64,000 nucleotides of DNA from Periweissella cryptocerci (lineage in GTDB: Bacteria > Bacillota > Bacilli > Lactobacillales > Lactobacillaceae). The position numbers and the translations under genes were made by a program. The notes below the pieces were generated by a model that made no database searches, was not told the origin of the DNA, and saw nothing but the letters and a program-made list of their open reading frames with translations. The stretch covers positions 310,001 to 374,000 of the forward strand of contig NZ_CP037940.1 of the NCBI RefSeq assembly GCF_004358325.1, read 5' to 3'. Below, in pieces: positions 1,223 through 42,390 of the stretch (its first letter is position 1; each line of letters starts with the position of its first letter).

Positions 1223-2752
1223 GGCTGTATTTTTTTTAGCGTGGGATTTCAATATCTCACGCTTTTTTGGTATTCAAATTTCACAAACTTTTCCCAAAAT
1301 AAAAAGACATACATCGTCTTTCCTTGTTATTCTGAAGTTCTCACACAAACAGAAAAGGAAATACGACATATGCCACTATATTCTATCTTACGTGCCACTG
1401 GATTAACAGACCCAAATTTCAATTTTCACATTACTGATGATGGTGAGTTCAACTATCTTACTCAGAATGACAAACATGATTACGCAACCCTTAATTACGC
1501 CGCTACGCTTGATGTTATGCCTGAATGTTGCCCTTACTGTGCTCATTCAAGTTTGTATCGCCATTCCACGGAATATTCGGTTCACGTATTGCCTTCCACA
1601 AACGGTTATCATCAAGTCCTACATCTCGACAAAAAACGTTATAAGTGTAACGGCTGCGCCCGTACTGTTGTCGCCCAATCCCATGATTTACGGGACAATT
1701 CTAAAATTACACGCCCTTTATTGCTTCAAATACTCGACCTCGCACGATTTGATATCTCAGCCAAGTTGATTTCATATATCCTCAAACTATCACACACTAA
1801 GATTCATAAACTTCTCAACGCCACAGCTGACCGTTACCGGCCAAACTATGAACAACAACTCCCACCAGTTATTTGTATTGATGAAGTTCAATACATGAAA
1901 AATCGCTACGGCTTCGAAATGATCAATGGCTCGAATTCTGATTTTATCGAGATTTTCCCAGAGCGCACGAACGCTAAAGTTAGGGGCTATTTGGCGAATT
2001 TCTCGTTAAAAAATCGTAAATGTGTGAAACTTGTGGTCACTGATATGAACGCCAACTATCAAAACTGTTGTCCGGCGATGTTTCCTAACGCACAGGTCGT
2101 TATCGACCGCTTTCATACTGTCCAACTGGCGATGAAAGCCGTTCAATCTGTCCGAACTGGGTACCAAAACACTGTCGACAACCGTACTCGAATCTACAAA
2201 ATTCTCAAGTCCAACTGGAAACTTTTCTTAACCAACGAGTCAAAGTATGATATTTTCGCATCGCGCTGGTTCAAAGGCATTAATCAATACGCTTTCACCA
2301 TCGACATCCTTGATGAGGTCTATACCCAATGCCCAAACTTGGGCATTGCTTGCGAAATCTATCAGCTTATTTTACGGGCCGTAAACAGCCGCAAGGAAGA
2401 TGAATTCGTCGCGCTACTTAAAAACTATAAAACTACTGGCACGCCCATGGATACGGTCATCAAAACTTATAAGAAATACAGACGTGGCATCATTGAATCG
2501 TTTAGAGTTAAAGCCAGTAACGGGCGTATTGAAGGCATTAATCGACGTATCAAACAAATGAAACGGACCGCCTATGGTTACGCTAAACCCGCTAACTTCT
2601 TCCATCGAATTCGTCTCCAATTATTAAATAAACACGTTTTAACATCACAATTCACTAAATTGATGACAGAATAAAACCCCGAAATCCGTTAAGATTCCAG
2701 GGTTATTTCACAAGCTTAATTTCGCCCAACCCACGTCAGACGGAATAGAGCC
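1223..2752 (+). mobile_element. ISL3-family insertion sequence, apparently complete
   Basis: The element is bounded by imperfect inverted repeats of about 23 bp (left begins GGCTGTATT and ends AGCGTGGG; right, read inwards, begins GGCTCTATTCCGTC and ends ACGTGGG). It is flanked by a perfect 8-bp direct repeat ATAAAAGG at 1215-1222 and 2753-2760. Eight-base duplications and a single long transposase ORF are characteristic of ISL3. The 1530-bp length fits the family. No frameshift was seen, so it could be active. Its ends resemble those of the non-coding repeats at 975, 22871, 29099, 38369 and 41661, making it, or a close relative, the likely source of the transposase that moved them. Confidence 0.93.
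1370..2674 (+). CDS. ISL3-family transposase
   Basis: This is a 434-residue protein if started at the ATG at 1370, which has AAGGAA about 9 bases upstream. An in-frame GTG at 1241 would add 43 residues with no ribosome site and would lie partly in the inverted repeat. The N-terminal third has a zinc-finger-like set of cysteines (ECCPYCAHS, then YKCNGCART), followed by a helix-turn-helix region and the DDE-type catalytic core with CIDEVQYMK, VVTDMNANY, VIDRFH and, near the end, SNGRIEGINRRIKQMKR. These are the standard signatures of ISL3 transposases (transposase_20/12-like fold). It catalyses cut-and-paste movement of the surrounding element. Confidence 0.95.
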   Translation: MPLYSILRATGLTDPNFNFHITDDGEFNYLTQNDKHDYATLNYAATLDVMPECCPYCAHSSLYRHSTEYSVHVLPSTNGYHQVLHLDKKRYKCNGCARTVVAQSHDLRDNSKITRPLLLQILDLARFDISAKLISYILKLSHTKIHKLLNATADRYRPNYEQQLPPVICIDEVQYMKNRYGFEMINGSNSDFIEIFPERTNAKVRGYLANFSLKNRKCVKLVVTDMNANYQNCCPAMFPNAQVVIDRFHTVQLAMKAVQSVRTGYQNTVDNRTRIYKILKSNWKLFLTNESKYDIFASRWFKGINQYAFTIDILDEVYTQCPNLGIACEIYQLILRAVNSRKEDEFVALLKNYKTTGTPMDTVIKTYKKYRRGIIESFRVKASNGRIEGINRRIKQMKRTAYGYAKPANFFHRIRLQLLNKHVLTSQFTKLMTE

Positions 2753-22872: not shown

Positions 22873-23231
22873 CTCTATTTTTATTCTAGTGTAGAATTCT
22901 CATTTCTGTACTTTTGTCCAAGGTATATTCATTTACCATGGAATATACTTTGGACACTAGTCTGAGAATTATTACTAACTAGCGGAGCGCCGGTAAATTG
23001 CTTGGCGGGCGCAGCCTTTACACCACGACTGGGGTGATATGTGTGCAACACATATCGCCGCTGAGGATGAGATGAGGAGTCTTAGGAATTTATTCCTTAG
23101 AGTCCCAGCTTATCCGAACCTCCCAAGACCGCACTTTGGCTTGGGAGGTTGCTTCCAGCGTGGTGCGCCAAGCAATTTACTGGCGCGTAGTGGTCAAGTC
23201 TATTCAATCCCACGCCAGGCGGAATAAAGCC
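22871..23231 (+). mobile_element. Non-coding structured repeat with ISL3-like ends, copy A (about 361 bp)
   Basis: The left end TTCTCTATTTTTATTCTAG and right end CCACGCCAGGCGGAATAAAGCC resemble the terminal repeats of the ISL3 element at 1223-2752. Inside are a hairpin GTCCAAGGTATATTC/GGAATATACTTTGGAC (22918-22956) and a large fold closed by a 21-bp stem, 22987-23007 with 23166-23186 (one G-U pair). This encloses GCCTTTACACC, a GATATGTGTG/CACATATC hairpin, GCTGAGGATGAGATGAGGAG with a TCTTAGGAA/TTCCTTAGA hairpin, and a 9-bp CCTCCCAAG/CTTGGGAGG hairpin (23118-23153). A 62-codon ORF inside is judged not coding. No clear target duplication remains. Confidence 0.8.
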
Positions 23232-29098: not shown

Positions 29099-29330
29099 GA
29101 CTAAAATTTTTCTAGCGCGGAATTTAGATATGTGTCTCAGATTGATTCCCACTACGAGGCTGGAACCAGTCTGGACACCGTGATGGAAGACAAGCATTTG
29201 AAGCCACAGTGCGGTCTTCAAATATTTGCGAAGCTTGGTTCGCTAACGCGCTAACCATCTTCACAAATCCATAACCAGTAACGAAACCCGTTACTGATTA
29301 TGCCATCACGGTGCGAGCTAAAGTCCAGCC
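29099..29330 (+). mobile_element. Non-coding structured repeat with ISL3-like left end, truncated copy D
   Basis: The left end GACTAAAATTTTTCTAGCG and the following 230 bases are about 90% identical to the left third of the 705-bp copy at 41661. It contains the multibranched fold with ACCGTGATGG/CCATCACGGT, CATTTGAAG/CTTCAAATA, GCGAA/TTCGC and CAGTAAC/GTTACTG hairpins. It stops right after GTCCAGCC, losing the outer 3' strand, the second RNA fold and the right terminal repeat. It is therefore a truncated element. Confidence 0.75.
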
Positions 29331-29384: not shown

Positions 29385-29391
29385 AACGAAT

Positions 29392-38368: not shown

Positions 38369-38794
38369 ATTCCATTTATTCTAGCGTAGGATTCGCATTT
38401 CTGGACTTTTGTTTAAGAATACTCACGCACCACAGAATATATCTTAGGTACTAGTTTGAGTCCATCACAAAATCAGTGGTAGCTGATTTGATTGAATCTA
38501 CCCCCAGCGACTGTTTTTTGCCAGTTTGAGAATTATTACTAACTAACGGAGTGCCGGTAAATTACTTGGCGGGCGTAGCCTTTACACCGCGACTGGGGGA
38601 ATATGTGTGTAGCACATATTTCCGCTGAGGATAAGATGAGGAGTCTTAGGAATTTATTCCTTAGACCCCCAGCTTATCCGAGTTTGCCAAGACCGCACTT
38701 TGGCTTGGCAATGTGCTTCCAGCGTGGTGCGTCAAGTAATTTGCCGGCACGTAGTGGCAAGTGTATTCAATCCCACGTCAGACGGAATAGAGAC
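38369..38794 (+). mobile_element. Non-coding structured repeat with ISL3-like ends, copy B (about 426 bp)
   Basis: The right end CCCACGTCAGACGGAATAGA matches the right end of the ISL3 element; the left end TCCATTTATTCTAGCGTAGG is a degenerate left terminal repeat. The left arm is related to 975-1163. The core fold is the same as in copy A: a 21-bp closing stem (38551-38571 with 38730-38750), ATATGTGTG/CACATAT, TCTTAGGAA/TTCCTTAGA and TTGCCAAG/CTTGGCAA hairpins. Several stem positions differ from copy A on both strands, keeping the pairing. No protein-coding gene is supported. Confidence 0.8.
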
Positions 38795-38826
38795 AAAAAA
38801 CCACCAATCTAAAACGACTGGTGGTT
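38795..38826 (-). terminator. Terminator of the 243-residue secreted protein gene
   Basis: AAAAAACCACCA and TGGTGGTT form a hairpin followed on the minus strand by six T, 15 bases past the stop at 38841. Confidence 0.85.
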
Positions 38827-41601: not shown

Positions 41602-41642
41602 AATAAGCCCGATTTCTCTTTATTGCAGAAATCAGGCTTATT
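41602..41642. terminator. Hairpin related to the one at 29337
   Basis: AATAAGCC-GATTTCT pairs with AGAAATC-GGCTTATT. It is nearly the same hairpin as at 29337-29384, and both lie next to copies of the same structured repeat (here before it, there after it). Confidence 0.5.
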
Positions 41643-41660
41643 AACGTGCGGCAAATATCT

Positions 41661-42365
41661 GGCTAAATTTTTTCTAGCGTGGAATTTGGATATGTGTCTC
41701 AGATTGATTCCCACTACGAGGCTGGAACCAGTCTGGACACCGTGATGGGAGACAAGCATTTGAAGCCACAGTGCGGTCTTCAAATGTTTGCGAAGCTTGG
41801 TTCGCTAACGCGGTAACCATCTTCACAAATCCATAATCAGTAACCAAACCCGTTACTGATTATGCCATCACGGTGCGAGCTAAAGTCCAGCCTGGTTCCG
41901 GCCTCTTCGTTAGTTTGCGTAGGCATTCTGACTAGTAATATGCCGTAATCCTTGTCGCTGTGGGTTTAGCGGTAATCAATAGTTCAACGCTCATCTAGCG
42001 GAGTGACTGAAAATCACATTGTGGCCGCCAGGCTTTACACCGAAATGGGACAAACGTGACACCACGTGTCGGGTTTGTCGCTGAGGGTAGATGAGCAGTC
42101 TTTTGGCTTTAGCCATTAGACTGCCAGCTATCCCGAATTGCCCAAGACAGACATCCAGCCTGCAAGGCTAATCTAATCGCGTTAGGATTAGATTCAGTAT
42201 TTTGTGAAACAAAATGCTGGGATGTTTTGCGTTGCCGGTTCACAGGCATAAGCAAGCAGCTTGGGCATGTGCTTCCATCTCGGTGCACAATGTGATTTTC
42301 AGGCACGCAGTGGCATCATACATCTCATCACATTTTATAAATTCCACGTCAGACGGAATAGAGCC
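41661..42365 (+). mobile_element. Full-length non-autonomous transposon carrying two structured RNA modules, copy C (705 bp)
   Basis: The ends are GGCTAAATTTTTTCTAGCGT and the reverse of GGCTCTATTCCGTCTGACGT, as in the ISL3 element, and AAATATCT is repeated exactly on both sides (41653-41660 and 42366-42373), the 8-bp duplication expected for ISL3. Module 1 is closed by a 21-base stem (41718-41738 with 41885-41905) and holds ACCGTGATGG/CCATCACGGT, CATTTGAAG/CTTCAAATG, GCGAA/TTCGC and a 13-bp hairpin (41832-41844 with 41852-41864). Module 2 is closed by 42003-42023 with 42286-42306 and holds the CTTTACACC, GCTGAGG and AGTCTT/AGACT blocks of copies A and B, with about 110 extra bases of hairpins in its TTGCCCAAG/CTTGGGCA arm. 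No ORF with a ribosome site spans it. Confidence 0.88.
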
Positions 42366-42390
42366 AAATATCTGAATTAACTTTGCGAGC

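Follow-up and report, generated by a model that had tools for sequence, protein, structure and literature searches.

The element lies at positions 41661-42365 of the window, by which we mean the whole 64,000-nucleotide stretch of Periweissella cryptocerci DNA that was analysed. It is 705 bp long and is flanked by perfect 8-bp direct repeats (AAATATCT/AAATATCT), recognised by sequence comparison as target duplications at 41653..41660 on the left and 42366..42373 on the right. The left terminal repeat (GGCTAAATTTTTTCTAGCGTGGAATTT, 41661..41687, + strand) and the right terminal repeat (reverse complement GGCTCTATTCCGTCTGACGTGGAATTT, 42339..42365, + strand) agree at 20 of 27 positions when compared as inverted ends, and the outer 22 bases of the right end are as in the ISL3 insertion sequence described below.

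Two branched domains make up the interior. Domain 1 (41718..41905, + strand), defined by folding and by a match to the covariance model R1 (see below), has a 21-base closing stem in which 41718-41738 and 41885-41905 match at 19 of 21 positions, and this stem encloses three internal hairpins. The core of hairpin A (GAAGCCACAGTGCGGTCTTC, 41762..41781, + strand) has a 7-nt loop and a bulged T; hairpins B (41790..41805, + strand) and C (41833..41863, + strand) were placed by folding. Domain 2 (42003..42306, - strand) is a module of the same kind, inverted, and its own 21-base closing stem (42003-42023 with 42286-42306) matches at 20 of 21 positions, so that the two long-stemmed domains expected from the original prediction were both found. 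Inside hairpin A of domain 2 lies a multi-hairpin arm (42149..42258, - strand). Folding of the whole element gave -319.2 kcal/mol for the + strand (shuffled mean -206.5, z = -19.2) and -293.6 kcal/mol for the minus strand (z = -13.9), and none of the 20 dinucleotide shuffles made per strand equalled the native value on either.

The original prediction had also held that the element carries no credible open reading frame, and comparison of 23 copies of at least 670 nt agreed with this: no reading frame was preserved across them, the mean longest being 59 aa as against 70 aa in mononucleotide shuffles, and a protein-coding cargo was rejected. A search of the window against Rfam, as had been proposed, returned no family at the gathering threshold and three weak matches (SL1, SNORD108 and sR33), all far below their cut-offs, at E up to 10. 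Neither GOLLD, ROOL nor HEARO matched in the window even at that level, and identity with these RNAs was rejected.

Copies, candidate transposase and placement

The element is not unique, as about ninety copies are present in its own genome. A 23-base left-end pattern was found at 89 places in the 3.02-Mb genome at up to 3 mismatches (reversed control, 0), and a right-end pattern at 55 places. The end pattern CACGTCAGACGRAATAGAGCC had no match in the genome_contigs database, in which the P. cryptocerci genome is possibly not included. Flanks were taken for the 89 left ends, and 79 of these could be joined to a right end when up to 9 mismatches were tolerated, so that some pairings may be wrong; the 8-bp repeats were perfect in 24 of these 79 two-ended copies and had at most 1 mismatch in 27. 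By blastn, 57 matching pieces came from the 40 of 296 candidates that were scored. The other four genomes in the genus gave no match to the element. A vacant insertion site was sought in those genomes and abandoned, the flanking gene having only weak matches there (27-28% identity). The genomes of these four relatives measure 1.8-2.0 Mb, as against 3.02 Mb here.

Copies range up to 745 bp and many are shorter. Alignment of 78 of them to a 744-nt copy showed blocks with recurrent break points and whole arms missing. Most of the missing blocks are probably deletions, but an arm of about 97 nt in domain 2 may have been gained, as may a 38-nt piece. The domain-2 arm at 42149..42258 was absent from nine blastn-matched copies, two of which (L026 and L028) show a short hairpin A in its place. 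Altogether there is little doubt about the anatomy: a gene-less element with ISL3-type ends, present in about 90 copies and holding a head-to-head inverted pair of branched domains.

The window contains a truncated second copy consisting of a left end and domain 1 (29099..29320, + strand; model match 29172-29320, 37.7 bits). It also shows a second gene-less family with related ISL3-type ends and the same kind of domain at about 22890-23231 and about 38450-38796 (bounds set by eye), with the domain at 23013..23170 (- strand, 28.2 bits) in the former and as a partial match at 38639..38711 (- strand, 27.1 bits) in the latter. A short palindromic repeat, AATAAGCC(C/T)GATTTCT...AGAAATC(A/G)GGCTTATTAACG, occurs at 41604-41643, near 29390 and beside several copies of the element; from its sequence it looks like a separate, bidirectional terminator-type repeat.

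A candidate source of transposase lies in the same window. An ISL3-family insertion sequence with 8-bp repeats (ATAAAAGG), recognised by its matching ends, spans 1223..2752 (+ strand) and contains a 477-aa transposase ORF at 1241..2674 (+ strand). This insertion sequence, of about 1.53 kb, is present at six places in the genome with direct repeats matching at 8 of 8 positions and with ends like those of the element: CCACGTCAGACGGAATAGAGCC is common to the right ends, and TAGCGTGG with some flanking letters to the left ends. Together with the perfect 8-bp repeats of the element, the matching ends of this full-length insertion sequence bear out the original prediction of a segment with ISL3-like ends that moved as a unit. 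The transposase frame runs for at least 489 codons without a stop in three of the six copies (L032, L034 and L035) and is shorter or interrupted in the others; the translation from copy L127 is an ISL3 transposase, with 244 bits against NF033550 (cut-off 180). The 477-aa frame in the window departs from the L127 translation in two short segments, in the manner of paired frame shifts, and the activity of the window copy is therefore not assured. The element is a non-autonomous, MITE-like transposon of the ISL3 family, and we infer from the shared ends that an ISL3 transposase probably mobilises it in trans. A second ISL3 insertion sequence family with other ends (GGCTCTGTGTCAAATTC) was seen in seven further stretches (L031, L033, L036, L038, L039, L041 and L045), where some transposase frames contain stops.

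Copies of the element are placed with a fixed polarity. Judged by GC skew and gene strands, the replication origin lies near 1.6 Mb of the record, which corrects a first reading of the element as running with replication: the + strand of the window runs against it. The strand corresponding to the window + strand opposes replication in 85 of the 89 copies (p = 8e-21 for an expectation of one half; p = 4e-4 when the expectation is 82.6%, the co-oriented share of coding bases in the fetched stretches), and the rule is obeyed by 15 of the 17 copies that lie between convergent genes on simple ORF calls. In 24 of 79 copies the right end is abutted by an intrinsic terminator (hairpin and T-tract), as against 4 of 79 for the left end; among intergenic positions drawn at random from the same stretches the count was 127 of 4860, a control whose positions overlap one another and are unmatched as to location behind genes. 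With the strict terminator finder, a single copy of the six ISL3 insertion sequences was positive. In the window copy itself, inspection by eye showed no terminator at the right end, the nearest hairpin being on the left. Orientation biases of transposons relative to replication are known and have been linked to the beta clamp (PMC5371812); a description of terminator placement for ISL3 elements did not surface in searches of the open-licence literature.

Relatives of the branched domain in other Lactobacillaceae

When either A or C was allowed in the loop, the hairpin A pattern matched 50 stretches of genome_contigs, every one of them from Levilactobacillus or Lactiplantibacillus; the exact loop pattern gave no match among IMG/VR viral contigs. 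Sixteen Levilactobacillus stretches could be aligned to a branched fold of 54 pairs, 33 of which showed two-sided changes, and as these stretches were chosen by the exact hairpin A pattern, the invariance of hairpin A among them is built in. From these 16 sequences only we built R1, a covariance model of 165 positions and 54 pairs. At the gathering threshold of Rfam, a set of 16 relative loci gave a tRNA and nothing else.

With nine candidates scored per genome and stricter filters, R1 matched in 82 of 301 Lactobacillaceae genomes and 11 of 40 genera, the P. cryptocerci genome included; the other 219 genomes, among them four of the same genus, gave no match with the filters used. Across the order, 15 of 295 genomes matched, comprising 12 Lactobacillaceae and three weak matches in other families (26-33.5 bits). 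One genome (G299, of genus g38) stood out with nine matches at 120-144 bits. These scores are on a level with Levilactobacillus, clearly exceed those of the remaining g38 genomes listed and suggest a transfer between genera.

R1 matched four places in the window, one of them domain 1 (41734-41882; 39.4 bits, E = 3.7e-9). Hairpin A with its 7-nt loop and bulged T is exact at 41762-41781, and the folds of domain 1 show three hairpins within a long closing stem. These shared features show that domain 1 is related, through hairpin A and the general layout, to structured repeats of other Lactobacillaceae. In the alignment to R1, helix P2 (GCTGTGGG/CCCACGGC, beside an asymmetric GGAAC loop) is deleted, being absent from domain 1, and the score comes largely from hairpin A; because P2 is missing, domain 1 is a divergent relative and no standard member of the R1 family. 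Domain 2 of the window copy fell below the R1 threshold. When the window and 14 of 80 own-genome stretches were searched, a second, weak match (21-26 bits) was seen in the domain-2 region of six copies (L050, L069, L093, L098, L101 and L105), always opposite to domain 1. It is from these six copies and from sequence comparison of the two domains that we conclude that domain 2 of the window copy is inverted.

The repeat was followed in one strain of L. brevis, which had supplied 4 of the 16 model sequences. Its chromosome gave 54 matches (E up to 0.01) in 20 stretches of 20 kb, 400 kb in all, or about one per 7.5 kb, which extrapolates to about 400 places in this genome; one match of 63 nt was dropped from later counts. 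Grouped by hand, the matches formed 39 groups; in 12 of these, two or three domains lie together and one or more pairs are in opposite orientation. After shorter overlapping ORFs had been discarded, no group overlapped an ORF of at least 750 nt. The conserved part in L. brevis runs from CTGGCCGCCT to CGGCTAC, and no clear target duplication was seen at 15 multi-domain groups. In Lactiplantibacillus, units of about 230-400 bp that end in ACGCTTGGTGCTAGTTG contain the domain singly or paired, inverted pairs included. Seven of 19 distinct end pairs less than 500 bp apart had exact abutting repeats of 7-9 bp, and two genomes had 125 and 107 matches to ends of this type. No autonomous element with ACGCTTGG ends was among the matches listed. 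Ends of at least two kinds thus appear to carry the module, ISL3-type here and ACGCTTGGTGCTAGTTG in the Lactiplantibacillus units.

A Y1 transposase was considered as a partner of the bare domain and rejected: the P. cryptocerci genome had no match to PF01797 among the 4 candidates scored, and of five Y1 genes in L. brevis one had a domain within 1.5 kb and none was flanked on both sides. By titles and abstract openings, we recognised no description of the repeat in the open-licence literature. The family, which has no Rfam match, is apparently undescribed so far.

Covariation and strand signals

A model built from copies in related genomes had been proposed as a check, and relatives of the module aligned to the Levilactobacillus-built R1 covaried strongly across genomes. 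Among 116 aligned matches (E up to 1e-8), 94.9% of 5981 cells were paired and two-sided changes were seen in 50 of 54 pairs (1336 cells), in an alignment that is fitted to R1 and so favours pairing and in which cells count sequences, not events. The covariation score was 0.577, compared with 0.153 for shuffled and at most 0.098 for slid partners, and 0 of 500 shuffles reached it. The 7-nt loop and one-base bulge of hairpin A were kept in 96 of 116 rows, 92 of them with identical flanking letters; the loop letters vary, AAAGTGC being present in 27 rows. Copies within P. cryptocerci behaved differently from the strongly covarying relatives: their stems showed 45 compensated cells compared with 95 G-T, 85 A-C and 150 other changes, and look mostly decayed. 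One divergent copy (e1456670) had 15 compensated pairs compared with 8 G-T, 3 A-C and 11 others, and copy e1789396 had 9 compared with 21, 9 and 43.

Mismatches gave conflicting signals as to the strand. On the loop-sense strand, 40 variable pairs (picked after a first look at the data) had 117 A-C and 47 G-T, whilst in the remaining 14 pairs, which belong mainly to P2 and the foot of P1, the counts were 6 and 214; the rare mismatch types were balanced (25 to 22, A-C to G-T). A strand call made from the A-C excess was withdrawn, as all 54 pairs pooled favour G-T (261 to 123), and strand assignment was abandoned because the mismatch types conflict between helices. In L. brevis, the A-C:G-T ratio over the 40 pairs was 25:6 for leading and 24:4 for lagging copies, and these near-equal ratios exclude a simple replication bias there. 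Folds limited to Watson-Crick pairs gave A-C to G-T counts on the loop-sense strand of 65 to 25 in 50 relatives and 160 to 99 in 72 own-genome copies. Whole-element energies, an ambiguous test of strand, were better for the + strand in 50 of 72 copies.

Interpretation and comparison with known systems

We consider it probable, with moderate confidence, that in this element an ISL3 mini-transposon has captured a structured, REPIN-like repeat. The transposon half of this reading is supported by the 89 left ends, the perfect repeats in 24 of 79 copies, the matching insertion sequence, the orientation rule and the excess of terminators. The repeat half is supported by the R1 matches, the covariation in 50 of 54 pairs, the kept bulge and the opposite domain pairs. 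The structured domain would be an older repeat, spreading separately and working like a very large REPIN, of which ISL3 ends would have captured a pair. ISL3 transposase would then move the whole element in trans and insert it in a constant orientation, in many cases within or next to the T-tract of an intrinsic terminator. A protein may recognise the domain as a folded single strand of ssDNA or RNA, mainly via hairpin A. We put the narrower claim that the branched domain is a selfish repeat recognised as a single strand, with strand and RNA or ssDNA left unspecified, at a little short of an even chance. The preferred reading is weakened by the negative searches for a mobilising protein of the bare domain and for clear target duplications and by the conflicting strand signals; the missing P2 of domain 1, its score drawn largely from hairpin A and the decay pattern in its own genome weaken it further.

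It is possible, though we doubt it, that the domain instead acts as RNA near the 3' ends of genes, as a branched transcript that binds a protein or protects or processes mRNA. The covarying structure would suit such a role, and the conserved T-G pairs of P2 on the loop-sense strand would be wobble pairs in RNA; in the variable helices there is little wobble (47 G-T of 4448 cells), with A-C exceeding G-T. Gene context in L. brevis points both ways. Among 38 groups, 27 lay between tandem, 10 between convergent and 1 between divergent genes, compared with 224, 46 and 41 of 311 gene pairs, and a count by single domain with another ORF filter gave 37, 11 and 4 of 52; the scarcity between divergent genes and the frequency between convergent ones favour an RNA. 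Set against this are the absence of any Rfam match and of a preferred orientation to the genes in the tandem cases (20 to 17 of 37), where inverted pairs cancel by construction.

A less likely account gives the domain no function of its own: template-switch correction of quasi-palindromes would keep the stems alike, and the spread would be hitch-hiking on transposons. The decay-like changes among own-genome copies, the deletions that remove whole arms and the carriage of the domain by at least two kinds of transposon ends agree with it. Correction alone is insufficient, because it would erase bulges, yet 96 of 116 rows retain the one in hairpin A; the 15 compensated pairs of e1456670 also speak against it, although correction could make these too.

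It is somewhat less probable still that the repeat works as duplex DNA or a cruciform in chromosome organisation, which would explain its being chromosomal and absent from plasmids. Against the 54 matches in 400 kb of L. brevis chromosome, the four other contigs of the strain (104,245 of 106,304 bases) had none at E up to 1, where 13.8 were expected from 53. Blastn of plasmid records with the window element and two relatives, and of phage records with one relative, likewise gave no match; such absences are odd for a promiscuous mobile element and count against the preferred reading. The near-perfect Watson-Crick pairing of the variable stems and the fixed orientation in P. cryptocerci fit a duplex role as well, but the L. 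brevis repeats show no polarity (loop-sense strand leading in 20 and lagging in 23 of 43 strong matches) and 219 of 301 family genomes, four of the same genus included, had no match under the filters used. The single ornate RNA of about 700 nt that was originally predicted is very improbable, the stability of the whole-element fold notwithstanding, because the two domains are mutually inverted, copies without whole arms are common, relatives occur singly or as inverted pairs and no Rfam family matches.

A broader proposal, which we offer tentatively as improbable but worth stating, is that the branched domain represents a new functional class acting as a folded strand (RNA or ssDNA). Some lactic-acid bacteria would maintain it by the hundred on their chromosomes and not on plasmids, and unrelated mini-transposons would have acquired it on more than one occasion (ISL3-type here, ACGCTTGG-ended in Lactiplantibacillus, with no recognised ends in Levilactobacillus). 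The chromosome-only occurrence, seen in one strain, would, if general, separate host function from plain selfishness. A covarying structure of 54 pairs with about 400 extrapolated copies in L. brevis and outside Rfam amounts to a large unexplained share of the genome in food bacteria, and the form in which cells perceive dispersed structured repeats (RNA, ssDNA or duplex) can now be tested directly. To judge from the ISL3 element, such a module may be the sole cargo of a DDE mini-transposon, which would place it with fixed polarity and often beside terminators.

Several known systems resemble parts of this arrangement. GOLLD, ROOL and HEARO share the large branched fold without an ORF, but the modules of our element are inverted and repeated and match nothing in Rfam. 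The BOX, RUP and SPRITE elements of pneumococcus, likened here by their descriptions, are also dispersed structured repeats in a genome of the Lactobacillales, and RUP moves in trans. SPRITE is terminator-like (PMC10969869). ISL3 insertion sequences and their MITE-like derivatives agree with the element in their ends, 8-bp repeats, gene-less interior, many shorter derivatives and the ISL3 insertion sequence in the genome; the differences lie in an interior made of a pair of conserved branched modules, in the polar placement, often beside terminators, and in a length of 705 bp, up to 745 bp, compared with less than 500 bp usual for MITEs (PMC10969869). REP sequences and REPINs are likewise high-copy, intergenic, palindromic repeats that often form inverted pairs, and their GTAG tag may have a counterpart in L. 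brevis, where 13 of 13 single copies listed finish with CGGCTAC, which gives GTAG on the opposite strand. They have RAYT (Y1) transposases, to which the P. cryptocerci genome has no PF01797 match, and are 20-40-bp palindromes (PMC3733652), whereas the R1 repeat has five helices in about 170-190 nt and the module here is carried within DDE-type ends with target duplications.
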